The notes under the pieces were generated by a model that saw only the letters and a list, made by a program, of their open reading frames with translations, ran no database searches and was not told where the DNA came from. Below, one piece after another: positions 13,785 to 40,451 of a DNA stretch of 51,441 bases. This DNA is from Pirellulaceae bacterium (GTDB lineage: Bacteria; Planctomycetota; Planctomycetia; Pirellulales; Pirellulaceae). The stretch is taken from the NCBI GenBank assembly GCA_030681235.1, contig JAUXWY010000427.1, forward strand, positions 1 through 51,441, in the 5' to 3' direction. Position 1 is the first letter of the stretch, and every line of letters starts with the position of its first letter. A program made the translations under genes and the position numbers.

Positions 13785-14414
13785 ATGTTGAATATTCTAG
13801 CGGTTCGAAACATCACCCCAATCGTAAGCGGCTTCGTCCTGACCGTCGCTTTGGTTGGGTGCAACGTCGGTGTCGATACGGGCCAATTGAAGGGCCAATC
13901 GAACGGCCAATCAGCAAGCGAATCGTCGGGCCAATCCCTTCCAACAGTGACGGCGGCGACCGTAGGCAACACCAAGCCTCTGCTGCAAGTGGAACATTGT
14001 TACCTCGCCGGACAACCGCAAGCGGATGACTTTGTGGCTTTTAAAGCCGCCGGCGTCAAAAAGGTGATTTCGATCCGAGACCCCAGCGAAGTCAACTGGG
14101 ACGAACGAGCTGCCGTCGAAGCCGCTGGGATGGAGTTTGTGCAGATTCCGATGCGCTCGCCGGACCAAATGACTGAGGACAAAATCAAAGAGATTTGTGA
14201 ACTGTTGCAACAGGCGGACGAACAAGATGAAATGGTCGTGTTGCACTGTGGCGCAGCGGTGCGAGCTTCCGCCGTGTGGTTGGCACATTACTGCGTCAGC
14301 CGAAAGGCGTCTTGGGAGGAAGCTGAAGCGGTCGCGGCCACTTTGGTTGAAGTACCTGACGCATGGAAAGCACCCGTCAAGTCTTACGTCGAAAAGAACG
14401 TCTCACGGAACTGA
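13785..14414 (+). CDS. Lipid-anchored phosphatase-like protein (DSP/BLH fold)
   Basis: Predicted lipoprotein of 209 residues: a hydrophobic segment ends in the lipobox LVGC, with Cys26 as the anchor. After a Gln/Ser-rich linker the domain from about residue 65 resembles the tyrosine-phosphatase-like family of beta-lactamase-hydrolase-like proteins (DUF442). It has the opening LAGQPQADDFVAFKAAGVKKVISIR and the P-loop HCGAAVRAS, with Cys155 and Arg160 four residues apart, the spacing usual for this subfamily rather than the CX5R of classic phosphatases. The linker DNA repeats GGCCAAT four times. Catalysis is plausible but unproven; it would act outside the cytoplasm. Confidence 0.78.
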   Translation: MLNILAVRNITPIVSGFVLTVALVGCNVGVDTGQLKGQSNGQSASESSGQSLPTVTAATVGNTKPLLQVEHCYLAGQPQADDFVAFKAAGVKKVISIRDPSEVNWDERAAVEAAGMEFVQIPMRSPDQMTEDKIKEICELLQQADEQDEMVVLHCGAAVRASAVWLAHYCVSRKASWEEAEAVAATLVEVPDAWKAPVKSYVEKNVSRN

Positions 14415-14419
14415 AGCTG

Positions 14420-14851
14420 ATGCAACAACCCGAATGGGAATGGACGATCGAGCGGAAGCTCTGCAGCAAAGCAGAGGCGGCTGCCCTGATGATCCAAGAG
14501 ATCCTGGATCGAATGGAGTCTTTGGGCTGGTCCCAAAAGGAACAGTTGGACACCCATTTGTGTTTGGAAGAAGCGTTTATGAACGCCATCAAGCATGGCA
14601 ATCGCAACGACAGCCAACGTTGCGTCGAGACCAAGTGCTGGATCAATACCCAACATTTTCGGATTCAGATCCAAGACGAAGGTTCAGGGTTTCGTATCGA
14701 AGAAGTTCCCGATTGCACGAAGGCCGAAAATTTGACGAACTGCAGCGGCCGCGGCCTGATGATGATGCAATATTTTATGGATGTGGTTCAATACAATCCT
14801 GTGGGCAACGCTGTCACGATGGAAAAGCGTCGAGGTAACCAGCAGCTTTGA
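14420..14851 (+). CDS. RsbW-like ATP-binding anti-sigma regulatory protein
   Basis: Stand-alone GHKL ATPase of about 143 residues, of the type found in anti-sigma-factor kinases. The N box is CLEEAFMNAIKHGN (Glu and Asn), the G1 box DEGSGF, and the G2 box GRGLMMM. Such proteins bind a sigma factor and phosphorylate an anti-anti-sigma partner; neither partner is visible here, and many planctomycete members are unstudied. The ATG at 14420 lies 5 bp after the preceding stop, so the two genes are probably translated from one message. An in-frame ATG at 14363 would overlap the upstream gene and is less likely. Confidence 0.87.
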   Translation: MQQPEWEWTIERKLCSKAEAAALMIQEILDRMESLGWSQKEQLDTHLCLEEAFMNAIKHGNRNDSQRCVETKCWINTQHFRIQIQDEGSGFRIEEVPDCTKAENLTNCSGRGLMMMQYFMDVVQYNPVGNAVTMEKRRGNQQL

Positions 14852-15300
14852 GCGACGATCTGCAGGCAACGGCAAACGACAAACTTGGGTGGCCGATCCA
14901 ATTGGTCACGGAGCCGGCATCCCGCCTTCCTGATGTTTCGCGGTCTGTCGTTGTGGCGGTCGTTTTGTGGAGCGTCTTGATTCTCGCCATCAGCGGCCTC
15001 GGGTATCTGACTGGCTCCGAGATCATTGTCTGTCACTTGCGTCGTTGGACGGGTTGGCCATGCCCAATGTGTGGTGGGACGCGCATGGTGCTTTCGCTCT
15101 TGAGCGGGAGGATCACCGACGCTTTCTGGTTCAATCCGCTGTTGTTCGTGACATTGATCGCCGCCGGCGGTTGGTTTGGTTGGCCGGCGTTGACAGGCTA
15201 TCGATTCCGAGTCAGGGCAACGTGGTTTGGCTGGTGGGCTTTGTGCCTCCTGGGGTTCGCCGCGGTAGTTGCCAACTGGATTTATTTGGTTGCAAAATAA
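14848..15300 (+). CDS. DUF2752 membrane protein
   Basis: Small inner-membrane protein of 150 residues. The DUF2752 signature is clear: ITGSEIIVCHLRR-like entry, then CPMCGGTRMVLSLLSGR, where the paired cysteines sit at the membrane face. Three hydrophobic helices are visible: VVVAVVLWSVLILAISGLG, FNPLLFVTLIAAGGWFGW and WWALCLLGFAAVVANWIYL. The start is a TTG at 14848 whose last two bases overlap the stop codon of the ATPase gene, indicating translational coupling. Function of the family is unknown; the cysteines might bind metal. Confidence 0.85.
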   Translation: MSDDLQATANDKLGWPIQLVTEPASRLPDVSRSVVVAVVLWSVLILAISGLGYLTGSEIIVCHLRRWTGWPCPMCGGTRMVLSLLSGRITDAFWFNPLLFVTLIAAGGWFGWPALTGYRFRVRATWFGWWALCLLGFAAVVANWIYLVAK

Positions 15301-15453
15301 GCCAGGGTTCACCGATCGCCCATGCCGATGAAGTAACAGCTTCGCAACTAGCCGAGCTCGTCGTGGGAGATAAGTAGGGACAAGTGACTTACCCGGGCTA
15401 TAATTCAACAATCGCTGGGTTGGTTTGGTTCTCGAGCACGTTGTGGATTCCCC

Positions 15454-17079
15454 ATGAATAGTCCGTTTCTTTCGCTGCCATTGTGGGCGGTTGTTGTCTT
15501 CTTGGTCCTAATGGCTGGCTGCGGAGAACAAAGTAAGGCCGTTGACGCGACGAAGAGCCCGGCAAAGCCGGGGACCGAAAACACCGTCGACGATGAAATG
15601 GCCTCCCGCGTCAATTCCATGTTCAAGAATCTGCCGGAGGCCTCCAAAACTGATCGGCCCGCCTTTTCACTGGGAGATGGCACTCCAGCCCCGGCGGACT
15701 CCAGCGCCAGCAAAGTAACCGACGGAACCACACCCGAAGTATCTGCCCAGCAAGGTGTCGTTTCCCAGGGCGCAACGACCGCTACGGACTCGGCGAACTC
15801 CGGGGACATCAATCGGTTGATGGATCGACTACAGAAATTGCATTCAATGCAGTTGGATGTGCAGTCGATGGAGCAGTTCCAACAAATTCAGATCGAACGC
15901 CTTGAGAAGTCTACTCAAGTGTTGGCGTTGAACCCTTCCTACGAATTCCAGGTCATGGCGATCAAGACCCAAATCGATGCCTTGAGTTGGCAGGATGGAA
16001 CCGATCAGCCGGGAGCCGCCGAGCGACTCGAACAGCGCTGCCAAGAGCTACTGCAAAGCGAAAATCTGGACTTTCGCCGGATGGGCATGTTGGGGCAAAC
16101 CGGGGCCTTCATGCGTCGCTATGCAAAAACGCCTTCGATCGGCGTGGCTCCGTTGGTTGCGAGTATCCAGAAAATCATGCCCCAAGATTTTGATGACTTT
16201 GAACTGGCGACCGAATTGGCGCAAACCGCCTCGGCCATCTTTGTTCAACGACAACGGGCCGATTCGATTCAAGTCATGACCGCGCTTCGCGATTGTCTGC
16301 GAAACAGTCAGCAATTGCCCGTTATCGGCATCGCCGATTCGCTCTCGGCCCAGATCGCCATGGCCGAAGTGGAGTTTGACAAATTGATCAAGAACCAAGT
16401 GGCCGACGAAGAAAAAAACCTGCCTGCACTTCGCGCTGGGATGGAAAAAATCGTCAGCACCGGTGCGACGGTTTCGATGTACAACGAGATGATTCCATGG
16501 ATGCAGCTGTTTGAACAGCAAGCCTGTTATCGCTCGACCGGGGTCGTCGCAGAAGTGTTGGAAACGGCGTTTCGCCAAATTCCTTCGGACCCGAGCATCG
16601 TCGAAGTGTTGAGTGCCTTGCAACCCGTTCGGCAGCGCATGCAGTTGATAGGCAATCCGCTGGAGTGGTCGGAATTGGTCGACTACAAAGGCGGAGCGTT
16701 TGATGGCAACGTCTTGAAAGGCAAAGTGGTCTTGGTGACGTTCTTTTCGGGCAAGGCGGACAAGCCGCTACGTGATCAACTGCAGTTTGAAACCAAGATG
16801 TTTGAAGAATTGCAGGACAAGGGCTTCGCGATGGTCGGATTCAATATCGATCCCGATCCCAATTCCTCGCGAGATTTCTTCGGTTCGCGCTTGCCGCGAT
16901 GGCATTGTTTGCAGTCCAGCAACCCCGCCAAACTGGGTTTCGATTCAGTTTTTGCGGTGCAAACCGTGGCGAATCAAGTGCCGTATCGTTTGCTGTTGGG
17001 CCGCGATGGAAAGGTCGTGCATCTCGGCATTCCAATCGACCGACTCGGGAAGTACGTCACCGATGAAATGCAAAAGTAG
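15454..17079 (+). CDS. Lipoprotein with TlpA/thioredoxin-like domain lacking CxxC
   Basis: Predicted lipoprotein of 541 residues. The signal ends in the lipobox LMAGC, with Cys23 as the anchor. A low-complexity linker runs to about residue 105, and a helical region to about 400. The C-terminal 135 residues look like an AhpC/TlpA thioredoxin fold: GGAFDGNVLKGKVVLVTFFSG, then FNIDPDP, and VPYRLLLGRDGKVVHLGI with the cis-proline-like VP. The usual WCxxC site is replaced by FFSGKADK, so disulfide exchange is unlikely. It faces fmt tail to tail, 12 bp apart. Its role is unknown, possibly binding or structural at the envelope. Confidence 0.8.
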   Translation: MNSPFLSLPLWAVVVFLVLMAGCGEQSKAVDATKSPAKPGTENTVDDEMASRVNSMFKNLPEASKTDRPAFSLGDGTPAPADSSASKVTDGTTPEVSAQQGVVSQGATTATDSANSGDINRLMDRLQKLHSMQLDVQSMEQFQQIQIERLEKSTQVLALNPSYEFQVMAIKTQIDALSWQDGTDQPGAAERLEQRCQELLQSENLDFRRMGMLGQTGAFMRRYAKTPSIGVAPLVASIQKIMPQDFDDFELATELAQTASAIFVQRQRADSIQVMTALRDCLRNSQQLPVIGIADSLSAQIAMAEVEFDKLIKNQVADEEKNLPALRAGMEKIVSTGATVSMYNEMIPWMQLFEQQACYRSTGVVAEVLETAFRQIPSDPSIVEVLSALQPVRQRMQLIGNPLEWSELVDYKGGAFDGNVLKGKVVLVTFFSGKADKPLRDQLQFETKMFEELQDKGFAMVGFNIDPDPNSSRDFFGSRLPRWHCLQSSNPAKLGFDSVFAVQTVANQVPYRLLLGRDGKVVHLGIPIDRLGKYVTDEMQK

Positions 17080-17091
17080 CCTCGACTGCAG

Positions 17092-18081
17092 TTAGAATCG
17101 TTGTCCTGGACGCAGGCCATAGCCGCGCAAAAATTCGCCGCTAGCCATGCCTCGCTTGCCGGCAGGCTGAACGCGAGTTAGTGCCAAGACTCCGGTTCCC
17201 GTTTGAACCCACAAATCGTGGCCTTCCGCGCGCAGGATTTCGCCGGGAACGGCGGTCTTGGAGGCCGTCGTTTCGAGTTGAGTTTTTTCTGTAGCGACAA
17301 TCTCCGTGGCCAGAACAATCAAGCGCAGGGGCTGTTCACCACCGGGCGGTTCACCACCGCGTCGCCACAACGTAAAACTCCCCGGCCAGGGTTGGAAAGC
17401 GCGAATCTGATTGCGAATTTGGTCCGCCGAATGCCGCCAATCGATTTGGCTTTGAGACTTCGCCAATCGCGGGGCCTTTGTCACGAGTGACGGATCTTGA
17501 ATGGCACCAAGAATCGATTGTCCGTCCCAGGTTTTCAACATGTGCAAGGAGTCACGTACCGCATCCACGCCCAGCACGGAAAGCCGTTGTTCCAATTCGC
17601 CCGCCGTTTCGTCCGGATCAACTGGAAGGCGTCGTTGCACTAGAATCGGACCGCCGTCCAATCGTGGGGTCATGTGAATCACCGAAACGCCGGAGTCGAG
17701 GTCCCCGTGAAAAACACACCATTGCACGGGAGCGGCACCGCGGTACTTGGGCAAGAGAGAACCGTGCAAGTTGATCCCGCCCCATCGCGCCGTCTCCAGC
17801 GCTGCCGGCGCCAAGATCTGTCCGTAATCGCACACGACCAACAGATCGGCCCCGACCGCGCCCAACGTTGCCACCGCATCCGGCGAATTGACATTCGGCG
17901 GGTCGAAGATTGGAATCGTTCGAGTTTGAGCCACGACACGCATGGGGCTGATCGGCGGCTCTTTCCCTTTCGCGGGAACCGGCGGCCGCGTCACCAACAA
18001 CGGGATATCGTGCTCGTCCGACAACAGGGCTTCAAACGTGGGGACTGCAAACGGGCCGGTGCCCATCATGATGATCTTCAT
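17092..18081 (-). CDS. fmt: Methionyl-tRNA formyltransferase
   Basis: Adds a formyl group from 10-formyltetrahydrofolate to initiator methionyl-tRNA in the cytoplasm. The 329-residue length is normal. The N-terminal Rossmann region starts MKIIMMGTGPFAVPTFEALL. The catalytic segment GINLHGSLLPKYRGAAPVQW contains Asn104 and His106, and HMTPRLDGGPIL supplies Asp142, matching the Asn-His-Asp triad of the family. The C-terminal tRNA-binding domain ends GEFLRGYGLRPGQRF. Peptide deformylase (def), often adjacent, is not in the window. A tiny upstream frame overlaps its ATG by two bases and may couple translation. Confidence 0.95.
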   Translation of the reverse strand: MKIIMMGTGPFAVPTFEALLSDEHDIPLLVTRPPVPAKGKEPPISPMRVVAQTRTIPIFDPPNVNSPDAVATLGAVGADLLVVCDYGQILAPAALETARWGGINLHGSLLPKYRGAAPVQWCVFHGDLDSGVSVIHMTPRLDGGPILVQRRLPVDPDETAGELEQRLSVLGVDAVRDSLHMLKTWDGQSILGAIQDPSLVTKAPRLAKSQSQIDWRHSADQIRNQIRAFQPWPGSFTLWRRGGEPPGGEQPLRLIVLATEIVATEKTQLETTASKTAVPGEILRAEGHDLWVQTGTGVLALTRVQPAGKRGMASGEFLRGYGLRPGQRF

Positions 18082-18230: not shown

Positions 18231-21200
18231 CTAGGCGATTTGTGCGGCTGGTCGGATCGTCTCCGGCGCCACGGCCTTCAAGGCCTTGCTCAATACTTCA
18301 ACGGTATGACGAATCTGGGACTCCGAATGGGCCGCCGTTATGAAGAATCGCACGCGAGCCCGAGCTTCCTCCACGGCAGGGTACAGAATCGGTTGAGCAT
18401 TGATCCCGGCATGGAACAAGTATTCGGAGATCCGGAGCGCCTTGACCGAGTCGCCGACGATCACGGGAATGATCGGCGAATTGCTGCTCATGCCCGTGTC
18501 GATTCCGGCCGCCTTGGCCAATCGCAGGAACAACTTCGAGTTCTCGATCAGCCGAGTCACTCGTTCGGGTTCTTTTTGCAATTGCTGCAAAGCTCCCAAG
18601 GCCGCACCCACATTGGCCGGTGGCATCCCGGCTGCAAAGACGTAGCCTGGCGTCGTGTAACGCAGGTATTGAACCAACGACTTGGCCGCGCCCACGAATC
18701 CACCACAACTGGCGAATGATTTGCTCATGGTGCCCATCCAACATTCGACATCGCTGCGTTTGACGTCAAACATTTCGGCCACCCCACGACCCGTCTTGCC
18801 AAGCGTGCCGAACGAGTGGGCCTCGTCGACGTACATCCAACAGCGATGTCTTTTCTTCACTTCGACGAATTTGGTTAGATTCGGATAATCGCCGTCCATC
18901 GAATACAAGCCTTCGATCACGATGATCACGCGGCGGTAATCGGTGCGAATCTCTCCCAAGATCTCGTCCAACTGTTGCCAGTTGTTGTGGTCAAACGCCC
19001 GCCGCCGCGCACCGGAAAGCTCCGCGCCTTGGATCAAACTGTTGTGTGCCAACGCATCGTGCAAGACCAAGTCACCGGCCGAAACCAGATGCCCAAGGAC
19101 GGTTTCGTTGGTCGCGTGTCCACCGGGGAATGTAATGACATCTTCGACACCAAAGAAGTTGGCAATTTCGGCTTCCAATTCTTTGTGAATCGTCTTTTCA
19201 CCACTGACCAAGCGGCTGGCGGAAACGCTTGTCCCGAACCGATCGATCGCCTGTTTGGCCGCGGCGCTGACAGCCGGATGGCCGGATAAACCCAAGTAGT
19301 TGTAGCTGGCGAAACTGATCAGTTCGCGTCCATCGATCCGAGTCGTATCGGAGATCACGCCGTCGTGGACACTGAAGAACGGATTGCGAGCGCCCGTCGA
19401 CAAAATCAGGTTGCGAGTCCGCTCGAACCGCAGGTACTCGGGCATCTCTTCGACTTTGTAAAACGACGATGGCAGTTCTTCACTGGAGTGAAATTTGCGA
19501 ATCTTCGCCGTCGTTTCGGCAGCAGTAGCGACATGCTGGATGGGATGCGTGCCGATATGCGTTGTGATCGCCAGTGCAATCTCACGGATCGTCTCAATCT
19601 CTTGCAGAATTTCGTTGGGAAAGTTGCCGCCATAGATTTCTTCCAATTGGCTGGCAATGCTCATTCGTTCTAAGGAGTCCAAGCCCAGGTCGACCACGAT
19701 GTTGGTGTCCAAAGTCAAGGCCTTCGCCCGTTCTTTTGCCACGCCTTTGACGGCTTGCATGACCATTTCGACGACATCGATATTCACGTCGGCCGCGTCC
19801 GCTAGTGACGCGCCAGACGTAGAGTTCGTCGCGTCCGTCCCTTCATCGGTCGTGTCGGCAGTTTGCCAGGCACTCCATTGGGCAACGATCAGCAGCCGAC
19901 CCTCTTCAAAGTACTTGCGACAGGCGGTTCGTTGGATCTTGCCCGATGAGGTCTTGGGAATCGAGCTGGAACGAACCAGGATCACTACATCCGGCGGCAA
20001 TTCGTGTTCGGCGGTCACGGCCGATCGCACAGATTGAATCACGGCGTTCCAATCGACATCGTGCTGCCGTTCGACTTCACAGACCACCGCCAACAATTCT
20101 TTATCATCGCGTTCGAAGGCAAAGGCTGCCGCTCCCGCCGGTCGCAAGTGTTTGCTGCAACGCTCGACGGTCGTTTCAATGTCTTGAGGATAACGATTGA
20201 CGCCGTGGACAATGATCATGTCCTTCAAGCGTCCACTGACGAACAGTTCGCCACCGTAGAAGAACCCCAAGTCCCCAGTGCGCAAGAACCGAGTCTGGTT
20301 CGGGTCATCTACCAAGGTGGCATGGAAAACTTCGGCGGTCTCTTGCGGCTTCTTCCAATAGCCCTGCCCAACGCTGGGGCTGCTGATCCAAATTTCCCCG
20401 ATTTGATCGGGTCGCGCTAAAGTACAAGTTTCATGTTCGACAATGATCACCTCTTCGTCGCCGACGGTACGGCCGCAACCCACCAACCGCCGCGTCGGCA
20501 CGTTTTCTCCAGGTTTTGGTTCACGGACCTGGTACTTCTCCAAGTCCGTCGCGACGAATTCAACCGTCGTGGGCTCTTTATGAGGATCCGCACCCGTTAC
20601 CAACAAAGTTGTCTCCGCCATCCCATAACACGGAAAATGGGCCTTGTGACTAAAGCCATAGGGAGCAAATTTCTTCGAAAAGCGTTCCATGACATCGGCC
20701 CGCACAGGTTCCGCACCGTTAAACGCCAACTTCAAGCACGAGAGATCCAGCCCCTCGCACATCTCGTCCGTGATCCGCTCCACACACAGCGAGTACGCAA
20801 AGTTCGGACCACCCGTAATTCGAGCGCGAAAGTTCGACACCGCTCGCAACCATCGAATCGGTCGGGTCAACATCGCCACGGGGCTCATCAACGTTACCGA
20901 GCATCCCATGAACAGGGGGTTGATAATGCCACCAATCAAACCCATGTCGTGATACAACGGCAACCAACTGATCGCGTGATCGTCCGTCGAAACCTGGAAG
21001 GCCTCCGAAATCATCTTGCAATTGGACATCACGTTGAACTGCGTCAACACCACGCCCTTGGGTGTTCCCGTCGAACCTGAGGTGTATTGGATGAGCGCCA
21101 TGTCGTCGGATGTCAAACGCGGATGGACCCAGTCACTGGCCAACTCGCTCGGTACCCCATCGGTCGCCAACCAACTGGCGCGTTGCAGGCTCGGCGAATC

Positions 21201-21620
21201 GGACAGCGTCGCGCGGTCGATACGCTCCAACACGTCGTTCGTCGTCAAAGCCACCGCCGCCTGAGCGTCCCGCGAAATGGCGTCGATCCGCCCCATGTTG
21301 CGATTGCGGCGCGGCGGGAAAGCTGGCACCGGTACCACACCCGCGTAATGGCAGCCCATGAACCCTTCCACGAAGTCGAGTCCCGATTGGTACAGGAGCA
21401 GGGCCCGCTGCCCACGCATGTTCATCGACGTCAACTTGGCGGCGACCGCCCGAGCACGTTCATCCAACCGAGCAAAGGTCAGGCTAACCTCTTTTTGCTC
21501 GCCATCCTGCAAGAATCGCAGGGCCAAGTCGTTCGCTTTCGCATCTTTCCAATATCGCAGCCGATCGACAAAGTTCGTCTCTGGCGGAGAAAACGGACGC
21601 AGAAGTTCGGCAAGATTCAC
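18231..21620 (-). CDS. FAAL / acyl carrier protein / alpha-oxoamine synthase fusion
   Basis: Multidomain enzyme of 1129 residues. Residues 1-590 are a fatty acyl-AMP ligase: YTSGSTGTPKG for ATP binding, WLPLYHDMGLIGG, GYWKKPQET, and the late catalytic Lys561 in SGKIQRT. Residues about 610-690 are an acyl carrier domain with VVDLGLDSLERMS, where Ser649 is the phosphopantetheine site. Residues about 720-1115 are a PLP-dependent alpha-oxoamine synthase related to KBL, BioF and serine palmitoyltransferase: SYNYLGLSGHP, DEAHSFGTLGKTGRG, and the PLP lysine near 967 in GTMSKSFA. The predicted path is fatty acid to acyl-AMP to acyl-ACP to decarboxylative condensation with an amino acid, giving a long-chain amino ketone. 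The amino acid is unknown; a sphingoid-base or related lipid precursor is inferred. Confidence 0.9.
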   Translation of the reverse strand: MNLAELLRPFSPPETNFVDRLRYWKDAKANDLALRFLQDGEQKEVSLTFARLDERARAVAAKLTSMNMRGQRALLLYQSGLDFVEGFMGCHYAGVVPVPAFPPRRNRNMGRIDAISRDAQAAVALTTNDVLERIDRATLSDSPSLQRASWLATDGVPSELASDWVHPRLTSDDMALIQYTSGSTGTPKGVVLTQFNVMSNCKMISEAFQVSTDDHAISWLPLYHDMGLIGGIINPLFMGCSVTLMSPVAMLTRPIRWLRAVSNFRARITGGPNFAYSLCVERITDEMCEGLDLSCLKLAFNGAEPVRADVMERFSKKFAPYGFSHKAHFPCYGMAETTLLVTGADPHKEPTTVEFVATDLEKYQVREPKPGENVPTRRLVGCGRTVGDEEVIIVEHETCTLARPDQIGEIWISSPSVGQGYWKKPQETAEVFHATLVDDPNQTRFLRTGDLGFFYGGELFVSGRLKDMIIVHGVNRYPQDIETTVERCSKHLRPAGAAAFAFERDDKELLAVVCEVERQHDVDWNAVIQSVRSAVTAEHELPPDVVILVRSSSIPKTSSGKIQRTACRKYFEEGRLLIVAQWSAWQTADTTDEGTDATNSTSGASLADAADVNIDVVEMVMQAVKGVAKERAKALTLDTNIVVDLGLDSLERMSIASQLEEIYGGNFPNEILQEIETIREIALAITTHIGTHPIQHVATAAETTAKIRKFHSSEELPSSFYKVEEMPEYLRFERTRNLILSTGARNPFFSVHDGVISDTTRIDGRELISFASYNYLGLSGHPAVSAAAKQAIDRFGTSVSASRLVSGEKTIHKELEAEIANFFGVEDVITFPGGHATNETVLGHLVSAGDLVLHDALAHNSLIQGAELSGARRRAFDHNNWQQLDEILGEIRTDYRRVIIVIEGLYSMDGDYPNLTKFVEVKKRHRCWMYVDEAHSFGTLGKTGRGVAEMFDVKRSDVECWMGTMSKSFASCGGFVGAAKSLVQYLRYTTPGYVFAAGMPPANVGAALGALQQLQKEPERVTRLIENSKLFLRLAKAAGIDTGMSSNSPIIPVIVGDSVKALRISEYLFHAGINAQPILYPAVEEARARVRFFITAAHSESQIRHTVEVLSKALKAVAPETIRPAAQIA

Positions 21621-21762: not shown

Positions 21763-22536
21763 TCACCGGCGAAATGTCCCACCGCATACCGAAATGTCCT
21801 GCAGAATCACATGAACTTGTGAAATCTGAGGGTAATGGGAGAAATGGGCGATCTCGACCTGGATTCCCGGCTCCTCGCTCCACATCCTTGAAAAGAAAGC
21901 ATCTACCCAGCCAAGGTCCGAGATTTTACCGATTTTAACTGGGTTCTCCAATGGGCTCACCGCCTTCAGTAGCACGAGCTGCTTGGCGCGAACCTGCGTC
22001 GCCAACCACATGGCCAGACTATCCGATGTGACATCCCAGCTTTCTGGAAACCGGCGGTCCGCAGCGGCGGCGGCAGCGAGGTCGACGACCAGCGGACGTT
22101 CGACTCCAAAACGAGCCGCCGTGCCCGTCCAAGCCGCCATCTCCGACCGAGTCATCGGGTCGACCGAGTCCGGTCCCTCGGGCGAGACCTTCCCGCCACC
22201 GATCGCCCCAGCCGCTGGAAATTCCAGCAATGGCCATTCCATCAGCCGCGCGACCATCCGAGCCGTGACTTGCATGCCCGCCAAGGCCAATCGATGACTA
22301 TCTCGGGGGGATAACGAATGAACCCGATCCCAAGCGCGGACGGCATCGACCACGGTTCCGCCACCAACCACGACCAACCACTGTACCGGTCCTGATTCGA
22401 CATGGAGGTCGCGCAAGTGCTGCCACCATCGACCGACTTGGTTCGGCAAATCCGGGGACTGCAGCAAACTGCCCCCCAATTTCAGAACATGGGTTGATCG
22501 GGACTGGCCGGGATCATCAACTTGGAGTTGGGCCAT
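21763..22536 (-). CDS. Amino acid kinase family protein, MfnE-like
   Basis: Small kinase of about 257 residues in the aspartate/glutamate/uridylate kinase superfamily. VLKLGGSLL near residue 18 is the phosphate-binding strand, WLVVVGGGTVVDAVR the glycine-rich loop, and TSDSLAMWLATQV followed by LVLLKAVSPL the nucleotide-binding end. The pattern resembles the MfnE-type kinases and their relatives in tetrahydromethanopterin-linked C1 gene sets, which some planctomycetes carry. No other C1 gene is visible here, so that role is only a suggestion. The start at MAQLQVDD is preferred; an ATG 11 codons upstream is possible. Confidence 0.72.
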   Translation of the reverse strand: MAQLQVDDPGQSRSTHVLKLGGSLLQSPDLPNQVGRWWQHLRDLHVESGPVQWLVVVGGGTVVDAVRAWDRVHSLSPRDSHRLALAGMQVTARMVARLMEWPLLEFPAAGAIGGGKVSPEGPDSVDPMTRSEMAAWTGTAARFGVERPLVVDLAAAAAADRRFPESWDVTSDSLAMWLATQVRAKQLVLLKAVSPLENPVKIGKISDLGWVDAFFSRMWSEEPGIQVEIAHFSHYPQISQVHVILQDISVCGGTFRR

Positions 22537-22744
22537 GTTGGTACTAACGAAGGACGGCACCGAACGCACCGAACGTTATCGCCAGAAAGAACCAAACAAT
22601 TAGTTTTGAGCGAATCGCCATTAAAAGTAACTTGCGAGTCCAGATCGTTCAATAGGACTCGACGCCTCGTTCACGACAAAAAACGCCAAACTCGAACCGG
22701 GACATGGCACTGCAAAATCAAGACGCGTTTTTGGAAAAAAGTCC

Positions 22745-23386: not shown

Positions 23387-23948
23387 CGCTCACTCCTGTC
23401 AAGGTCTCCCTTGGCAACTCTGTCTTCACCTTAAAGACTCACACATCTCTCCTGGCAATTCCATGGATGTTGAGGAAGCAACAAAATCGGCGCTACCCAC
23501 GCTACCTCCACCAACTAACATCGTGCTTCCGTACACGCGGTCTTTGCAAAACTCCGACCCATTGTAACCAAAACTTGTTACAAAATTAATGGAAAATGCC
23601 AGCGTTCTCCACATTTCTATCGTTCTGTTCGGCTCGTAAGTTCCGACATATCGTCACTTCGCGATTCTACAACGCTTTGGGGATGGGTGTTTTCGACTTG
23701 GTCGGACGATATCCATGGACCGGCCGACCGCGGTGGGACGTCGATCTGGCTGAACCTAAAACCACCATCCATTCGCCAAGGTTCGAAAATTCTTGGGGGA
23801 ATTGACGATCGCGGCAACGATCACGGGCCGCCGCCATGTACCGCCCGATTTCGCGCGTTACAATTGCCGGGCTTTTTGCAGCGGTTGACCGATTCCGTAG
23901 TGGCATTGGTTCCCGTGGTTTCATGTCCGAAATTTGGGATCTCGCAGT
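23387..23948. other. Long intergenic gap between divergent genes
   Basis: About 560 bp separates the leftward pentapeptide gene from the rightward TAXI gene. Open frames on both strands here are short, overlap one another and show no family signature. I see no tRNA cloverleaf or clear terminator. Promoters for both flanking genes must lie here but are not distinct enough to place. Confidence 0.5.
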
Positions 23949-24986
23949 ATGACAACGTTGAAGGTCGTTCGGTTCAGTTTCGCGGGCAGTTTGGCAATTT
24001 CGGCCGCCAGTTTGTTGGCGTGCGCCTCCCTGTGGGTCGTCGGCTGTGGTGGAACGGGTGGCGACGGCTCGACATCAACCGGCAAACGAATGTTTATCAG
24101 CGTGGGAACCGCTCCGGCCGGAGCGGCATTCAACCCGGTCGGCAGCGCGATCTGTGAAGTGATCAACGAAAATCGTGGCGACTTGAACTGGACGGCCAAC
24201 GCCGAAGCCACGGGCGGTTCGATGGAAAACATCCGCTTGCTCAGTCAAAAGAAACTTCAATTTGCGATGTCAAACGCTTCGATCACATACTTTGCGGTGC
24301 GCGGGACGGAAGGTTGGGAACAAAAGCACGAAGTTCAATCGGTCATGTCGCTGTTCCCCAATATCGCCATGTTCGTCACGGTCGCAAATTCGGATGTCCA
24401 GAAGATTGCGGACCTGAAAGGCAAGCGAGTCTACATCGGTCCTGAAGGGGCGGGCTTCGAGTACTTTATCAACCCGATTCTCAACGCGCACGGACTGAAG
24501 CTCAGTGATTTGGAAGTTCGTTACGGCACACAACTGGAGGCCGCGGAAATGTTGAGCGATGGAACAATCGCTGCCGCGGTGTTGGGCGGGGGAAATCCAG
24601 TTGCGGCAATCACGCAGTTGGCCCAAGGCAATGCCATTCGCTTCTTGCCATTTGAGGACGAGGCCAAACAAAAGCTGTTGGAACAGTATCCGTTTTACTC
24701 CGCAGCGACCGTTCCGGCTGGGACATATAGAGGCCTTGATACCGAGTTCGCGGGGCTCAGCGTCGGTTGGGCTCACTTGATTGTCCATCAATCGCAGGAC
24801 GAAGAAACGGTCTACCAGTTCACCAAGTTGTTGTGGGAGAACCGTGAAAAGATCGCGACTCGCAATCGCGCCGCCGCCGCCATCAAGCCAGAAACCGCGG
24901 CGCGAAACACTGGGGTTCCCTATCATCCGGGCGCCGAAAAGTACTTTCGAGAAATCGGGATTTGGCCAGAAGCGGCGACGAAATAG
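23949..24986 (+). CDS. TAXI-family TRAP transporter substrate-binding lipoprotein
   Basis: Periplasmic binding component of a TRAP uptake system, about 345 residues. The ATG at 23949 (MTTLKVVRFSF) is preferred over an in-frame TTG five codons upstream. A hydrophobic signal ends in VVGC, with Cys33 a likely lipid anchor. The TAXI domain starts FISVGTAPAGAAFNPVGSAICEVIN and continues with SMENIRLLSQKKLQFAMSN and LKGKRVYIGPEGAGFEY. TAXI proteins bind small carboxylates such as glutamate or 2-oxoglutarate in studied cases; the ligand here is unknown. The fused permease follows after about 100 bp and completes the transporter. Confidence 0.9.
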   Translation: MTTLKVVRFSFAGSLAISAASLLACASLWVVGCGGTGGDGSTSTGKRMFISVGTAPAGAAFNPVGSAICEVINENRGDLNWTANAEATGGSMENIRLLSQKKLQFAMSNASITYFAVRGTEGWEQKHEVQSVMSLFPNIAMFVTVANSDVQKIADLKGKRVYIGPEGAGFEYFINPILNAHGLKLSDLEVRYGTQLEAAEMLSDGTIAAAVLGGGNPVAAITQLAQGNAIRFLPFEDEAKQKLLEQYPFYSAATVPAGTYRGLDTEFAGLSVGWAHLIVHQSQDEETVYQFTKLLWENREKIATRNRAAAAIKPETAARNTGVPYHPGAEKYFREIGIWPEAATK

Positions 24987-25088
24987 TACCGTTCCGTGGC
25001 ATTGTGCCCAAGCGGATGTTGGCCCCGGATTTACTGAACGCGAGCTCCGCGTTTCTTCACTGATTCTTGAACGAGAAAGCAGATAAAC

Positions 25089-27323
25089 ATGGGTCGGTCT
25101 CCCACGAGCGATTCTCGTTCGATGGACGCTCGTCGCGCCGGCGGTGAAGACGATCATCCGAACTGGGCCGCGAACTTTCATTCCGTCGACAGAGTCTTCC
25201 GTCATTGGGCCAGTCTCTTGATGGCGGTTGCGCTGACCGTGTTTGTGTTGTTGGAAGTGATTTTCGCGCAACTGTCGCCGCTGAAACAGATTTCTCTGTT
25301 CGTGACGTCAGGTTTGATTTTGTGTTTTCTCCAGGTCCCCGCGCACCCGGCCTTGGCCAAGTCCCTATGGCTTCGCGGTCTGGACCTTCTGTCGATGCTG
25401 TTGTCGATTCTTTGTTGCGGGTATCTGTTGTATGAAGGCAATGCGCTCGGGCAACGAGCGGCTCTGTATACGACAACCGACCTATGGGTTGGCACGATCG
25501 GTTTGATATTGATTCTTGAAGCAGCGCGGCGAACCGTGGGATGGTCACTGCCGATTTTGGCCATCGTGTTTATGGTCTACGCCCATCAAAGTGTGGCTCA
25601 GCAATTGCCGGATTGGATGTTCCCCCACCGCGGACAAGACTGGGAATCGATCATCGGGCAAACGTACTTGCGGACGCAAGGTGTTTTTGGAACCGCAGCC
25701 AGCGTGATGTTTCGCTACGTGTTCCTGTTTGTGGTTTTCGGAGCTCTGTTACAAGCCAGTGGAGCCACCGAGTATATCATCGGGATTGCCGTACGGATCT
25801 TCGGCAAACGTGCCGGAGGTCCCGCCAAGATTGCCGTCATCGCTTCGGGCCTCATGGGTTCGTTGTCCGGCAGCGCGGTTGCGAACGCGGCAACCACGGG
25901 AGCATTCACCATTCCGCTGATGAAAAACATCGGCTTCAAACCCCACGAAGCGGCTGGGGTGGAGGCCGCGGCGTCATCCGGCGGCGCACTGGTACCGCCC
26001 GTGATGGGAGCTGGTGCGTACATGATGATGGAGATCATCAATCCTCCGGTGACCTATCTCCAGATCATGCAAGCCGCTTTGATTCCGGCCATCCTGTATT
26101 ACTTGTCGATCTTCTTGTTGGTTCACTTCTCCGCCCGCCGAATCGACTCGGCGGAAGACGCAGCGCGTGGCCATGCGTCGGCCGATGAAGTGCGTCAATC
26201 GACCGAATTAGTGGAGCGAGCCAAGCACACGCCCTGGTTTTCGTTTGCTGGCCTCTCGTTTGTCAGCTCGCTTACCAGCCTATTGGCCTTCATGATCGTC
26301 GGTTTCTCGCCTTACCGTGCGGTTGCGTACGCCACGGCCGTCGTGGTCTTGATCTTGATGATCGACCCGAACACGAAAGTCCAAATCCGCAGTCGGGTCA
26401 TCAGCTTTGGTATATGGGCTTTGGCAACCGTTTCAGCGTTTTACTGGGCACCGTTTGGTTCGGCCGCCTTTTGGGGCGACGCAGTGGGCGACGCCTTGAT
26501 CATCGGGATGGCGGCGTTGTCCGTGATTGGCATCTTTTCCCCAGCTTGGTCGCCGCTGTTGCACAAGTTATTTCGCAGTACGGCGGCGGGTTCGATTCCG
26601 CTGATCGTGGCGGCGGCGACCGTCGGCGTGATTGTGGGTATGGTTTCGCGAACCGGGATTGGCACGGCGGTGCCGCAAGCCATTATTCCCTTGGCGGCCG
26701 GCAATCTGTTTCTCGGGTTGATGGCGATCATGACCTGCTCCCTTGTCCTAGGAATGGGCGTGCCATCGGCCGTGTCGTACTTGTTGCTGGCGACGATCAT
26801 TGGCCCCGTCTTCGCCGAACCGCAACTTGGCGTGCCGATCCTCGCGGCGCACATGTTTATCTTCTACTTCGGCATGATGGCGATGGTGACTCCGCCGGTG
26901 GCCTTGGCCGCGTACGCCACCGCTTCGATTGCGCAAGCGAGTGTGTTTTGGTCCAGTGTCGCGGCCTTTCGATATTCATTGGTGGGGTTCACGCTCCCGT
27001 TTATGTTTGTTTATCGCCCCGCGCTTCTCTTGATGAACGAAACCGGCGGGCCGCCCGTTTGGAGCGAGGTGGTCATAGCGATTGTAGCGGCTGTATTGGG
27101 AATTCTCGCTCTTTCGTCAGCAATGTCCGGGTTCTTGTTTTATCGCTTGACCCGTTGGATGCGCGTGCTATTGTTGCTTGCCGCTTCATCCTCGTTGTTC
27201 CCCGACCAATTTGGTTTGCTCGGAAAACACGTGCAACTATTTGATGTCATTGGCGGTGCCCTTTTGGGCGTGGCTGCCGTATGGAATTGGCGGTCGGGCC
27301 AAAACCATTCCAAACAGCCCTAG
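25089..27323 (+). CDS. TRAP transporter fused permease (DctQM type)
   Basis: Integral membrane protein of 744 residues joining the small (Q) and large (M) TRAP subunits, the form that pairs with TAXI binding proteins. About twenty hydrophobic segments are visible. The large-subunit signature is AVIASGLMGSLSGSAVANAATTGAFTIPLMK with AGVEAAASSGGALVPPVMGAGAYMM, and later LGMGVPSAVSYLLLATI and GMMAMVTPPVALAAYATASIA. It moves substrate with sodium or proton gradients across the inner membrane. The gene ends 23 bp before the glycosyltransferase start and may be co-transcribed with it. Confidence 0.93.
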   Translation: MGRSPTSDSRSMDARRAGGEDDHPNWAANFHSVDRVFRHWASLLMAVALTVFVLLEVIFAQLSPLKQISLFVTSGLILCFLQVPAHPALAKSLWLRGLDLLSMLLSILCCGYLLYEGNALGQRAALYTTTDLWVGTIGLILILEAARRTVGWSLPILAIVFMVYAHQSVAQQLPDWMFPHRGQDWESIIGQTYLRTQGVFGTAASVMFRYVFLFVVFGALLQASGATEYIIGIAVRIFGKRAGGPAKIAVIASGLMGSLSGSAVANAATTGAFTIPLMKNIGFKPHEAAGVEAAASSGGALVPPVMGAGAYMMMEIINPPVTYLQIMQAALIPAILYYLSIFLLVHFSARRIDSAEDAARGHASADEVRQSTELVERAKHTPWFSFAGLSFVSSLTSLLAFMIVGFSPYRAVAYATAVVVLILMIDPNTKVQIRSRVISFGIWALATVSAFYWAPFGSAAFWGDAVGDALIIGMAALSVIGIFSPAWSPLLHKLFRSTAAGSIPLIVAAATVGVIVGMVSRTGIGTAVPQAIIPLAAGNLFLGLMAIMTCSLVLGMGVPSAVSYLLLATIIGPVFAEPQLGVPILAAHMFIFYFGMMAMVTPPVALAAYATASIAQASVFWSSVAAFRYSLVGFTLPFMFVYRPALLLMNETGGPPVWSEVVIAIVAAVLGILALSSAMSGFLFYRLTRWMRVLLLLAASSSLFPDQFGLLGKHVQLFDVIGGALLGVAAVWNWRSGQNHSKQP

Positions 27324-28637: not shown

Positions 28638-28743
28638 GTGACCGTTCATCGCGAAAACGCGGGCCGCCGCAAATTTGGCTGTTAGAACTTTTATTCGAGG
28701 CAAGTTGGAATTCGCCAAATTTGCTCTGGCCACGCGGTTAACC
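28638..28743 (-). repeat. Structured dispersed repeat, copy B
   Basis: Read on the minus strand, this begins GGTTAACCGCGTGGCC and matches copy A at 3414-3520 for 35 consecutive bases, then again across the second arm. The stem is 28713-28736 with 28658-28679, including an 11-bp GCAAATTTGGC pairing, and encloses a 33-nt loop whose sequence differs from copy A. The palindrome GGTTAACC at 28736-28743 holds the TAA stop of recB. A short minus-strand frame crosses the repeat but is not supported as a gene. The position between convergent genes fits an inserted element or an RNA 3-prime structure. Confidence 0.72.
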
Positions 28744-31700
28744 CGCGCCGTTGGCTCCGGCCGTGAGCGGATACGTCGCGGCACGGGTCGGTCCGGCTCC
28801 ACAGAATAGTTGGTCCAAAGCATCAATCAATTCCCAGGGCGGTCGTTCAAAATAGACACCGCGAGTGCTTGGATTATCGAGCCCACGCAGAAATACATAG
28901 GCCGCGCCGCCGATGTGTTGGTCGTAATCGTAGTTCGCCAATCGCTGACGCAAATGACGATGCAGGGCGACCAAGTACAAGCTGTATTGCATGTCGTAAC
29001 GTTTGTCGCAAATGGCTCGCTGCAACGCGTCCAGGTGGTAGTCCTCACTGCGCGAGCCCAAGTCGTTCGACTTCCAGTCGGCAATGTAATAACGGCCTTG
29101 ATATTCGAACACCAAGTCCACAAATCCCTTCAACAATCCGTTCAATTGATCCGCTTCCAATGCCGGACGTGGTCGCCCCAGCACTGTTCCCGTGGTCACC
29201 ATCCGATCCAAAATCCGAGTGGGCACGGAATTTGTTTCGAACCAAAACTCGAGTTCTGCTTGAGTTTGCTCGGTCTTCAGTTCCGACAACCGTAAACCAC
29301 ACGAACCCAACGGCAATTCGGTGTGCAGAAACTGATCGAGCCAATCGTTGAGCGGTTCGCACCATGAACCCCAGTTGGCTTGTCGCGTGATTCGTTGCAA
29401 GAATGATTGGCGGAGGCTGCGGTCCTCGGCCACGCGATTGAAGCCGCGGTCCGTCGCCCATTCCAAGATGCTGTGCAAGAACGTTCCCGCTTGCGGCCCG
29501 CGCGGAAATTGGAGCATGGATGGGTTTGTTGTTTCGGGTTGAACCAGATGGACGGACAGCGATTGCGATTCCACGTCCCAAACTTCTTCGGCCGCGATTT
29601 CTTCCCGAGCCCGCTCCGGGGCCGCTTGTTCGCGCAGACGCAGCGCCGAGTAACTCGCGATCCACCAACGTGCCGACAGGCGCCGAGTCACACGGCGAGC
29701 TGGCCCCAACGCCCGATTCTCGAACGCTGGCAATCGATCCAAACAGTTTTTCGGCACGGCGGAAACTTCAATCGCTGGACAGGGCGACACGGCAGCTCTC
29801 AAGTTCTGCTCCACTTGATCGGCTCCAAATCTGGATTCACCGAACAACAAATATCCGATCCCACATTCGGCTAGTGAATGCCATCTGCTCTTGAGTGTCT
29901 TCCCCACGGGGGAACAGCCCAGCCACAAGGCGTGTTGGGCGCGCGTGAGCGCCACGTACAGCAATCGCATGTCCTCACTCAGGCGTTCCTGATTGGCCTG
30001 ACGATACGATTCGGGTGCCAACTTGGAACCTCCCGCCAATTCGGTCCTCAAGTCATAGCCCGTTGAGTCGCCCGTGCGCTGATGATAATCCACCACTTTG
30101 GATCGATTCGATTCTCGGTATGAACAGATGAACGGCAATAACACGAGCGGGTATTCGAGCCCTTTCGATTTGTGAATCGTAATGACTTTGATCAGATCCG
30201 CGTCGCTCTCCAGTCGCAAGATTTGTTCGTCGGTTGGGTTCTCCATCTGCTGCCCGAGTCGTCGAATCAAAGCCAATTCACCATCGACCGAACTACTGGT
30301 CTGTTGCAACCATTCCGATACGTGCAGCAAGTTCGTCAACGCCCGCTCGCCATGGGATTCTGCCAACAACTTTTTGGGAGCATCGAAATCCCAAAGCAAG
30401 GCTCGCAACATGGGCAACACGCCTTGATTCTGCCACAACTGATGGTAATTGCGAAACCGATTGATGGTTTCGTCCCAGCGATCTTCATCGTCGAAGACGG
30501 TCCGCAGCTCATCCAGTGACATGCGCAGACTGGCCGTTGTGAGGGCCGTCTTGATCAATCGCTCGTCCGCAGGATTGGCCACCGCCAACAGCCACCGTAG
30601 GATGTCGCGAGCTTCGTGCGTTTCGAACACCGAATCTTTGTCCGAAAGATAGACGCTGCTGACCCCTCGACGTTGCAACGCTTGCCGAATCTGCGCCGCT
30701 TCACGACCCGTCCGAACCAAGATGGCGATGTCGCGAGGTCGCAGTGCACGGAAGTCTTGTTCCGAACGAAAACCTGCCCTGCCTTCAGCAGCCAGCGTCA
30801 GCCACCGCACGATCTCGCTGGCCGATGCATCGGCCAATTGTTGTCGGTAGTCGGCTGGGCCGGTGACGCCGTGCTCGTTCTCGCCCGGCAAGTACCAGAA
30901 CTGTAGAGGAGTAACCGGTTGCCCCTCGATCAAAAAAACTTCGTTACGGCCCTGTGCCGCGACAGGAGCGAACGGGATCGGATCGGACGACTCGGTGCGA
31001 AAGCGAAACGCGCCCGCCGCGTGGTGCTCGGCATGTTGGAACAAATGATTGACCGCTTGGACCATGCCCAACGTCGAGCGATGATTGGTGCCCAAGGTTT
31101 CGCAACGCGAATCACAGGCTTGTTTGGCTTGGAGGTACGTGTAAATGTCGGCGCCGCGAAACGCATAGATGGCTTGCTTCGGGTCGCCGATCATCACCAG
31201 GCTCAGCTGCGAATCGTTGTCGCGCACCCGGTAGATGCGATCAAAAATCTCGTATTGGATCGGGTCCGTGTCTTGAAACTCGTCGATCATGGCCACGGGG
31301 AACTTTTGCCGAATGGCCTGAGCCAATCGTTCGCCGTTGGTTCCTTGAAGGGCCGCGTGCAAGCGGACCAACATGTCGTCATAGCTCAATTCCCCTCGAG
31401 CTAACAAACGCTGCTGCAATTCGCGGCTCACCCAATCGGCGGCATGCAATAGCAGCGACACACTCAGCGGTGGTTCCAGGACCTCGGGTTGCTGTTCCAA
31501 TAAATCGCACCAAAGCCCAATGGCATCGAAGGCTTCGTGCCGTGGTTCGACTCCGCCTTTATTCAACTTGAAGCGGCCGGTCCCTAGACGCTGGATCTTT
31601 TTTAGATCGTCAGTTTCGGCGTGGCTACCGTCCGCCCAATGCTTTAGCATGTCCAGCAGTTGCTCGCGACTTCCGCTACGATGATATGTTCCACCGTTGA

Positions 31701-32511: not shown

Positions 32512-32544
32512 CCGGACACCCTCCTATGGTCAGACGAAACGTGG

Positions 32545-35500: not shown

Positions 35501-36015
35501 GGTTGCGTGGACTGGTCGGCTCGGGTCAGCAAATCTCTGCCGTTGGCCCAGAGCAACAACCAATCCGCGCGATAGACTTGATACTGATCGAACAGATCGG
35601 CCAATCGTTGGGCCAATTGATAGAGCTTTCGCGACGACGGATCTTGAATCAGGAACGTGCGCAGCGAATGGAACTCAGGGATCGGTGGCAATTGTGGCAG
35701 AAGCCGCATCAATCGCCACAAGAGATGGCTTTTCTCGAAGGGCGAGTCCTCGGGCAAATTGCCCAGGACCGCGCGGTAGGCTCGCCATTGGAAGCGACCG
35801 GGCAACAGAAGTTTCAAGCCAGCGGCGATGCCACAACCATGTTCACGCGAGGCCAGCGACAGCTTGAGCCATTGAGCGATCCCGTTGCTTTGCACCAAGA
35901 TCACTTCATTTTCCAGCGGCGACAACGGCTGGGTTTGAATGACGCTGACCAAGCGGTCGCGGAGCACCTCCAGGCGATTGCTGTAGAACGGAAAAAAGCC
36001 GCCTGTCAAGTTCAT
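32545..36015 (-). CDS. recC: RecC-like exodeoxyribonuclease V gamma subunit
   Basis: RecC-type subunit of about 1156 residues, which in the known enzyme splits the strands and scans for Chi. The start at MNLTGGFFPFYSNRLE is preferred over an ATG 15 codons upstream because the family begins there. Recognisable parts are VILVQSNGIAQWLKL, ILVFGISSLPRQLLEVLMALG, VAHSPQREVEILQDQLLAAF and MPMRAIPFRRVCLLGMNEPDFP, the last a degenerate helicase region. The length is close to that of E. coli RecC. It heads a recC-recB pair and probably shares its promoter. Chi specificity in this organism cannot be inferred. Confidence 0.92.
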   Translation of the reverse strand: MNLTGGFFPFYSNRLEVLRDRLVSVIQTQPLSPLENEVILVQSNGIAQWLKLSLASREHGCGIAAGLKLLLPGRFQWRAYRAVLGNLPEDSPFEKSHLLWRLMRLLPQLPPIPEFHSLRTFLIQDPSSRKLYQLAQRLADLFDQYQVYRADWLLLWANGRDLLTRADQSTQPVPSDHMWQPYLWRLLMEDLPEAHRDSSRAHVHHRFLTAVDPWLNQSTTGGLPRRILVFGISSLPRQLLEVLMALGRRMAVHVFVHNPSRAVAFASDPSPLAAYALPDASFPALHPLLAAWGRQGNEYLKMLSVQAAAHPHATESSQFVSFGDGSTLLQQLQNEILNEWTDPTSATLRAQIGLADHSLTFQVAHSPQREVEILQDQLLAAFQADPELQPRDIMVMVPDIHTYAPHIQAVFGQIAADDPRYLPFTVNDQDRSQAQTLFLALDRLLQLDQSRMTVSELIDWLEVPAFRQAAGITGGDLPRLERWIQESGIRWGFDADHRAQLGLPEHSEQNTWRFGLRRMILGYAVGESSAWSEIEPLPRVGGLEAAVAGTLDQLVRRLHQWWRVLQQPAAPAQWHERLSQLLPEFFAPQSAAEESQLSQLQGALETWLQQCQDSRFDQPLPLNIVREHWLGGLREPHLSQRFLGGAINFATLMPMRAIPFRRVCLLGMNEPDFPRQTTVNEFDLMNTAGMYRAGDRSRGDDDRYLFLEALLSARESLYISWVGRSIRDNSARPPSVLCGQLRDHVAGGWQLAGGSDSGANSGRALVEHLTTTHPLQPFSREYFQNQPRLFTYSNQWRAVHREFGYREHAVPRDQAMWQPQDALTLTDLGDFLKSPVDAFFQRVLQVRFSESEGIDLDNEPFVVAGLERWSLNQEILHSIAAQLRDNVQSDVEVLLQQQLNRIRGEGSLPHPPFAQCVQEQLQTTMRRQVELYRDELKLLRATTLPSLQLAAPALARGHQITLNDSLDLVFQVADAPQQLRRLVWLASDLRDGQKFNFVQVVRLWPQHLALCTFAGEAANTIIIHGGGRRFVLAGMPAAEAGQMLLNLLQAFDLGMQQPLPVACQTAYVGMVDHYAGSPSQSVKAEFQYNGGDHLDGDATRSPLLARCWPTFEALVQPPARTTVQPSFDQCVERLYRPFYTFLCDHCEALEQEGHDD

Positions 36016-40332: not shown

Positions 40333-40451
40333 ATTTCGTGTTCCTCAGAACTTTAGGTAAATCGCGTCGGCGCGATCTCACACATGATTGAAGGGTCAGG
40401 GCCGCTGGGGGTAAGCCGTACGGGGTTGATTCGGTCGGGAATCGTTCTGGA

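Follow-up and report, generated by a model that had tools for sequence, protein, structure and literature searches.

A FAAL-ACP-AOS fusion conserved across Pirellulales is a probable single-chain long-chain amino-ketone synthase

Can a single bacterial polypeptide activate a fatty acid, tether it to a carrier domain and condense it with an amino acid? This question is raised by a gene on contig JAUXWY010000427.1 of a Pirellulaceae bacterium (assembly GCA_030681235.1), of which we analyzed a stretch of 51,441 nucleotides, hereafter called the window. The minus strand of window positions 18231-21620 contains one open frame of 1129 residues with a GTG start codon at 21620 and a stop codon at 18233-18231; the corresponding frame on the plus strand of this segment contains several stops. 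An initial annotation of this DNA, made from the sequence alone, described the product as one protein that joins a fatty acyl-AMP ligase (FAAL), an acyl carrier protein (ACP) and an alpha-oxoamine synthase (AOS). The Pfam matches within this single frame bear out this description:

18231..21620, minus strand: FAAL-ACP-AOS tri-domain protein with GTG start, 1129 aa
20355..21533, minus strand: AMP-binding N-terminal part of the FAAL, residues 30-422 (Pfam PF00501 AMP-binding, 2.6e-60; nearest solved structure 7r7e, 548 bits)
19884..20222, minus strand: C-terminal ligase subdomain, residues 467-579 (Pfam PF23024 AMP-dom_DIP2-like, 6.7e-14), with Lys561 at 19938-19940
19572..19763, minus strand: acyl carrier domain, residues 620-683 (Pfam PF00550 PP-binding, 1.6e-9), with Ser649 at 19674-19676
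18291..19325, minus strand: AOS domain, residues 766-1110 (Pfam PF00155 Aminotran_1_2, 8.2e-45), with the pyridoxal phosphate (PLP) lysine Lys967 at 18720-18722

The three catalytic residues that had been named as intact, Lys561, Ser649 and Lys967, are found at exactly these positions. In an alignment of 55 tri-domain sequences, namely the window protein and the proteins from 54 of 63 loci examined, they are retained in 55/55, 55/55 and 54/55 rows, respectively. The lysine, the stacking histidine, the DxAH motif and the arginine of the AOS domain are likewise retained in nearly all rows. The genome contains one gene for a phosphopantetheinyl transferase. Since the tri-domain gene is conserved over an order, which we take to be the Pirellulales, we can exclude the possibility that it represents a chance frame or an assembly join.

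Judged by its sequence, the window protein is probably a long-chain amino-ketone synthase that consists of a single chain. Its FAAL would spend ATP to form a fatty acyl-adenylate, and the acceptor of the acyl group would be the phosphopantetheine of the fused ACP instead of CoA. The AOS, with its bound PLP, would then condense this acyl-ACP with an amino acid, and the loss of CO2 would leave a 2-amino-3-keto long-chain product. We infer the order of these reactions, the loading of the ACP in cis, the class of the product and the role of the tri-domain protein. The logic of activating, holding and condensing, which was already part of the initial annotation, appears sound in light of the preserved active sites and the FAAL hallmarks described below. 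The broad product class proposed there, a 3-keto long-chain amine, would more specifically be a 2-amino-3-ketone.

The solved FAAL closest to the ligase domain is PDB entry 7r7e (549.9 bits over residues 15-582), which is titled 'Polyketide synthase' and which we take to be MxFAAL. The alignment contains only short gaps and does not delimit the FAAL-specific insertion. The residues that plug the CoA pocket, W219, M226 and F274 (W224, M231 and F279 in EcFAAL), are present in 55/55 rows each, as are the prolines P103 and P247 that guard the alternative pocket (P107 and T252 in EcFAAL). The third guard position, residue 79 (T83 in EcFAAL), is occupied by proline in 30, alanine in 14 and serine in 11 of the 55 rows. 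The EcFAAL residues and their numbering are those given in the relevant part of PMC8460268, and we mapped them by way of the FAAL from an E. coli plasmid with an offset that was set on W224 and agrees at T83, P107, M231, T252, R258 and F279. These plug and guard features argue for acyl transfer to an ACP and not to CoA. The same part of PMC8460268 reports loading for the pairs EcFAAL-EcACP and MxFAAL-MxACP; there MxFAAL and MxACP are separate proteins, unlike the ligase and carrier in the window.

How widespread is this architecture? A search across the planctomycetes, proposed in the initial annotation, suggests that the tri-domain gene belongs to the core genes of the Pirellulales and is not an isolated fusion. 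Some match at E<=1e-60 occurs in 58/60 genomes, including the genome of origin, which contains a single full-length copy. Loci were fetched from 50 of the 59 other genomes (nine genomes were not fetched), and 48 of these 50 contain a complete tri-domain frame, the exceptions being G005 and G036. With the window included, a complete copy is therefore present in at least 49/60 genomes. The nine of the 63 loci without a tri-domain frame comprise contig-cut copies (L061, L075, L144), polyketide synthase forms (L063, L065, L066) and shorter proteins of ACP-AOS size (L076, L077, L078). Among Pirellulales genomes that are at least 90% complete, 283/297 contain a match at E<=1e-150, corresponding to 117/123 genera; this count refers to strong matches, with the three domains not confirmed in each genome. 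A class-level scan identified matches in 57/198 genomes, 51 of them inside the order. The six outside the order cover residues 12-692 of the query only, which corresponds to the FAAL-ACP part of frames of 1390-4895 aa. A phylum-level scan returned matches in 6/246 genomes, two of which are from other classes: in G062 the match is limited to the FAAL (12-581), and G277 contains a contig-cut copy with the C-terminal ligase part, the ACP and the AOS. None of 207 plasmid records covers 80% of the tri-domain protein. The family of the window organism includes Blastopirellula marina: G356, a member of this family that matched in the order and class scans, has match coordinates identical to those of G680, the genome that contains the B. 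marina locus L096. Because the gene is nearly universal in the Pirellulales and is found without biosynthetic neighbors, a general precursor of an envelope or membrane lipid, such as a sphingoid-like base or a lipid anchor, is a more likely product than an occasional secondary metabolite.

We then turned to the AOS domain, which should determine the nature of the product. This domain scores below each NCBIfam cut-off shown, with bioF as the top model (344.7 bits, cut-off 426.45), followed by three serine palmitoyltransferase (SPT) models (307.4/640, 291.4/500 and 231.7/670 bits, score/cut-off) and the KBL model (294.3 bits, cut-off 460). As a control, the AOS from an E. coli plasmid reaches 599.9 bits and exceeds the SPT cut-off of 500. 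A capsule-type AOS from S. meliloti shows the same pattern as the window domain (bioF 360, SPT 302). The genome contains a separate KBL gene on C328 (464 bits, cut-off 460) that adjoins Tdh, and a BioF gene on C95 that adjoins BioB; the latter is cut by the contig end, reaches 304.3 of 426 bits and was named by its position. Since other genes for BioF and KBL are present, the window AOS likely does something else. The best solved relatives of the domain, 7poa and 8s1y (254.8 bits), are presumably structures of ThAOS; we likewise assume that 3a2b is from Sphingobacterium and 7yjo from a plant. The part of PMC10230504 that concerns ThAOS describes an AOS of Thermus for various amino acids and acyl-CoAs. 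Unlike the window domain, this enzyme stands alone, uses acyl-CoA and groups with BioF and KBL.

Phylogenetic analysis comprised one quick tree of 75 rows, for which the careful search was unfinished, and two careful trees of 34 rows. The window type, the RkpG-like stand-alone AOSs and the AOS ends of polyketide synthases form one clade (SH-aLRT 96; 100/99; 100/100). The synthase ends include L063, L065 and L066, Pirellulaceae proteins of about 2560-2580 aa that terminate in an AOS of this clade. Bacterial SPTs form a separate clade that excludes the window AOS (100/98 and 100/99 in the two careful trees), and KBL, BioF and ThAOS stand together. The window clade falls on the SPT/LCB2 side (98/95 and 98/94), with LCB2 weakly nearest (85/61; 92/93). 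Identity to the SPT, KBL and BioF rows used is 28-35%. A tblastn search of plasmids matched 534 records, of which the best 60 were considered. Relatives with 46-53% identity among the matches listed are a KS-AT-ACP-AOS protein from Streptomyces, a polyketide synthase from Planktothrix and AOSs from Caballeronia, Paraburkholderia, Pseudomonas, Methylobacterium, Shinella and Sinorhizobium. Five of the plasmid regions inspected adjoin a polyketide synthase as well as genes for capsule or polysaccharide; the region from Methylobacterium carries no annotation. Signature residues follow the same division. Position 860, after the PLP-stacking histidine, is asparagine in 43/46 Pirellulales rows, 3/3 synthase ends and 7/8 others, as opposed to alanine in SPT, KBL and BioF. 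Position 864 is glutamine in 44/46, 3/3 and 5/8 of these rows, as opposed to aspartate in SPT, KBL and BioF with the exception of one BioF. The residue after DxAH is serine, as in LCB2 and in 4/5 bacterial SPTs.

The Pirellulales protein is not the only fusion of this kind. A scan of named genomes with a 38% identical tri-domain paralogue from G021 led us to consider 80 of 465 confirmed loci, and these 80 include complete FAAL-ACP-AOS proteins from B. marina, Limnothrix, Picosynechococcus and a metagenome-assembled genome (MAG) of the Thermoguttaceae. The cyanobacterial proteins (Picosynechococcus PCC 7117, L127, and Limnothrix, L098) share domain order and length with the window protein at 38% identity, but differ by an AOS inside the bacterial SPT clade and by their adjoining genes. 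In both groups (L127:7950-16442 and L098:7965-18942) the fusion is followed by a short-chain dehydrogenase/reductase (SDR), a second FAAL and a family 4 glycosyltransferase (GT4), with a flippase on the other strand. These neighbor genes are 58-66% identical between the two organisms, and Limnothrix contains one extra gene before GT4, which is FAD-binding/epimerase-like. The best solved relative of the SDR among 177,635 sequences is TSC10, a 3-ketodihydrosphingosine reductase (100.3 bits; next 91.8); in NCBIfam this protein exceeds no cut-off, and the general SDR model comes closest (197.7 of 215). SPT models are also the best for the cyanobacterial AOS, although all scores are below cut-off (440.3/640, 397.5/500 and 319.5/670). 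To go by these features, the cyanobacterial group looks like a glycosphingolipid pathway, and its fusion would fit the description of a fused Caulobacter-type SPT set better than the window protein does.

Did these fusions arise once? In approximately unbiased (AU) tests on the AOS halves, a single clade of all fused AOSs was rejected (p 3e-40), as were the unions of the cyanobacterial with the window clade (p 0.0013) and of the paralogue with the cyanobacterial type (p 2e-10); that of the paralogue with the window clade was not (p 0.35). On the FAAL halves, in a tree whose bootstrap had not settled, the tests rejected all three together (p 2e-136), Pirellulales with the paralogue (p 4e-46) and the paralogue with cyanobacteria (p 2e-59), while Pirellulales with cyanobacteria was borderline (p 0.047). 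Since each pair fails the test for at least one of the two halves, the simplest reading is that three separate fusions took place: the Pirellulales core type, the cyanobacterial type and a second type in Blastopirellula and its kin. Exchange of one half within an older fusion is a possible alternative. Among the FAALs nearest to that of the paralogue are proteins whose frame contains no AOS (L097, 698 aa; L099, 676 aa).

Several related arrangements were observed alongside. The paralogue gene of G021 (L062:5856-11450) lies tail to tail with a gene for an MMPL-family transporter. L063:419-8086 reads KS-AT-DH-ER-KR-ACP-AOS, and similar large proteins are encoded by L065:1-7722 and L066:1837-9576, each followed by a gene for a DUF4261 protein. 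On a plasmid of Streptomyces anthocyanicus, a KS-AT-ACP-AOS protein (L079:5722-13131) is encoded divergently from an MMPL transporter. In a Xenococcus MAG, roughly 4 kb lie between a FAAL (L143:8001-9779) and a distinct protein of ACP-AOS size with 549 aa (13888-15537), the AOS of which is 53% identical to that of the window.

With these relatives in hand, we can weigh what else the window protein might be. The initial annotation likened the protein to the Caulobacter-type set fused into one chain, and along these lines it might be a serine palmitoyltransferase that furnishes 3-ketosphinganine for membrane sphingolipids. According to the relevant part of PMC9386255, the ceramide starter set consists of three individual proteins, AasR, AcpR and Spt, and this rhodobacterial set (Caulobacter) performs the same three steps with an acyl-ACP synthetase, a dedicated ACP and an AOS. 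It differs from the window by its separate genes and by CerR. An E. coli plasmid contains such a set (L087:2071-8304), where an annotated FAAL, an NAD-dependent epimerase, an ACP and an AOS lie side by side with lptF/lptG; the Spt of this copy exceeds the SPT cut-off and belongs to another AOS clade. The serine after DxAH and the position of the window clade on the SPT/LCB2 side are consistent with an SPT, as is the report of Spt-like proteins in 138 Black Sea Planctomycetota MAGs in PMC11334938, the relevant section of which names no fusion and states no family membership. However, the domain remains far below all three SPT cut-offs (307, 291 and 232 bits against 640, 500 and 670) and outside the bacterial SPT clade, and neither a CerR-like partner (0/40 in a search without positive control) nor a TSC10-like partner was found in the genomes searched. 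The notion of a fused Caulobacter-type set is not supported, even though an AU test did not reject union with SPT (p 0.18), and we regard a true SPT as rather unlikely. In its mode of action, the tri-domain protein would resemble an SPT set that is joined in one polypeptide and fed by acyl-ACP; in the trees its AOS is RkpG-like and not SPT-like. A misnamed BioF or KBL with a fused acyl supply, serving biotin or threonine metabolism, is highly improbable. The bioF model gives the top score, and AU tests did not reject union with BioF (p 0.069) or KBL (p 0.067) at 5%. The firm placement with either family that the initial annotation considered damaging to its proposal was not observed, and the trees speak against it. 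We reject this identity on the basis of the sub-cut-off scores, matched by the S. meliloti capsule-type AOS, and of the separate genes beside BioB and Tdh.

The affinity with RkpG raises the possibility that the protein makes a lipid anchor for capsule or exopolysaccharide, with the AOS acting as RkpG and the FAAL replacing the polyketide synthase RkpA as acyl source. The window AOS shares its clade, 46-53% identity, asparagine at 860 (7/8) and mostly glutamine at 864 with stand-alone AOSs of the rhizobial K-antigen (rkp) type, which belong to clusters of capsule or polysaccharide genes on pSymB of S. meliloti and in Shinella, Caballeronia, Paraburkholderia and Pseudomonas. On pSymB, the AOS adjoins a KS-AT-DH-ER-KR-ACP synthase, an SDR and capsule genes, which we read as RkpA/G/H-like. 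The rkp-1 region, according to the part of PMC3557214 that deals with it, makes, modifies and transports a lipophilic molecule that may anchor the capsular polysaccharide (KPS). In contrast to these stand-alone proteins, the window AOS is fused to a FAAL and an ACP and has no capsule genes nearby, nor do such genes occur among ten neighbors scanned elsewhere; near-universal conservation would also be unusual for a capsule locus. We consider this function doubtful. The protein could also catalyze the first step toward a secondary metabolite or signal of the alkyl amino-ketone, pyrrole or pyrazine type, by analogy with polyketide synthases that end in an AOS. Close AOS domains do terminate such synthases in Pirellulaceae (L063), Planktothrix and Streptomyces, but the near-universal presence of the gene in the order without a biosynthetic cluster makes this role improbable.

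Several observations weigh against a single-chain amino-ketone synthase. In L048 (8070-11570) the PLP lysine of the AOS is replaced by threonine (K967T) and the stacking histidine by aspartate (H859D), with the FAAL lysine and the ACP serine intact, and in L064 asparagine replaces D932 of the AOS. Biosynthetic or capsule genes adjoin the tri-domain gene neither in the window nor among the ten neighbors scanned elsewhere. No clear reductase for the 3-keto group emerged either: the cyanobacterial SDR matches only 1/60 relatives at E<=1e-30, and TSC10 is absent from the best 60 PDB matches of that one protein. The best SDR of the genome itself is 33% identical to the S. meliloti SDR (E 5e-21). 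CerR of E. coli has no counterpart in the 40 relatives at E<=1e-25 in the search without positive control mentioned above. The labels CerR for the epimerase and KDSR for the SDR are our assumption. AU tests also do not settle the deep position of the AOS clade, given the p values above and that for union with SPT plus LCB2 (p 0.07). Finally, the lipids listed for Stieleria mannarensis in the pertinent part of PMC12254169 are phosphatidylcholine, phosphatidylethanolamine, two unidentified phospholipids and two unidentified lipids, and no sphingolipid or long-chain base is named there. The S. meliloti SDR was itself rejected as a TSC10-type enzyme, since TSC10 is absent from its best 60 PDB matches, and we restrict this label to the cyanobacterial SDR.

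The genes that flank the tri-domain gene in the window are the following:

17092..18081, minus strand: downstream neighbor Fmt (Met-tRNA formyltransferase; TIGR00460, 209.2 bits, cut-off 201.5; cluster c8)
21763..22569, minus strand: upstream neighbor with amino-acid-kinase fold and weak likeness to MfnE (PF00696, 4.3e-11; MfnE 39.6 bits, cut-off 300; cluster c9)

Both were rejected as operon partners and judged unrelated, since each recurs in 4/41 regions, all from the genus of the window organism. This agrees with the initial annotation, in which later enzymes were not seen next to the gene. Nine same-strand neighbors elsewhere are mostly housekeeping genes (HisRS, Rex-like, QueG-like, P-type ATPase, ParA-like ATPase, amino-acid kinase, GH130-like and two without family). 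The recurrent neighbors are clusters c1, c3 and c2 (17/41, 13/41 and 13/41 regions), all of which are missing from the window. The one member of c1 that was scanned (L024:11955-15481) is BBP7 porin-like, c3 has no NCBIfam match and c2 is sugar-isomerase-like; most line-ups show c1 on the opposite strand, and we found no link of these clusters to the pathway. An apparent shared partner of about 735 aa near divergent copies was discarded, as it resolves into three unrelated families and one protein without family. Elsewhere, the window contains two large adjoining genes on the minus strand (28738-36060) for a UvrD helicase with PD-(D/E)XK nuclease and a RecC-like exonuclease V gamma, a 2-oxoacid:ferredoxin oxidoreductase pair (39319-42398) consisting of a TPP-enzyme C-terminal domain protein and a fused POR/POR_N protein, and a TRAP-type transporter (23934-27323) with an NMT1-like binding protein and a 744 aa DctM permease.

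In the titles and abstract openings of the open literature covered, we found no description of a FAAL-ACP-AOS fusion. Taken together, our observations raise the prospect of an undescribed amino lipid throughout the Pirellulales, of a machine assembled at least three times, of CoA-free acyl-ACP feeding as a recurrent start of sphingoid synthesis and of cyanobacteria as glycosphingolipid makers. We hold this combined picture tentatively, at a little under an even chance; it is somewhat weakened by the fact that the tests did not reject a shared origin of the paralogue AOS and the window clade. If true, it would add an order-wide lipid pathway, not found described in this literature, to a group known for odd membranes, and genome surveys keyed on SPT, CerR and CerS would miss or misname this pathway. 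Repeated fusion would suggest that evolution favors a single chain in which fatty acid activation, carrier and condensation are united. Picosynechococcus and other cyanobacteria would be overlooked glycosphingolipid makers, and their gene group would be a convenient starting point for identifying the product in a tractable organism.

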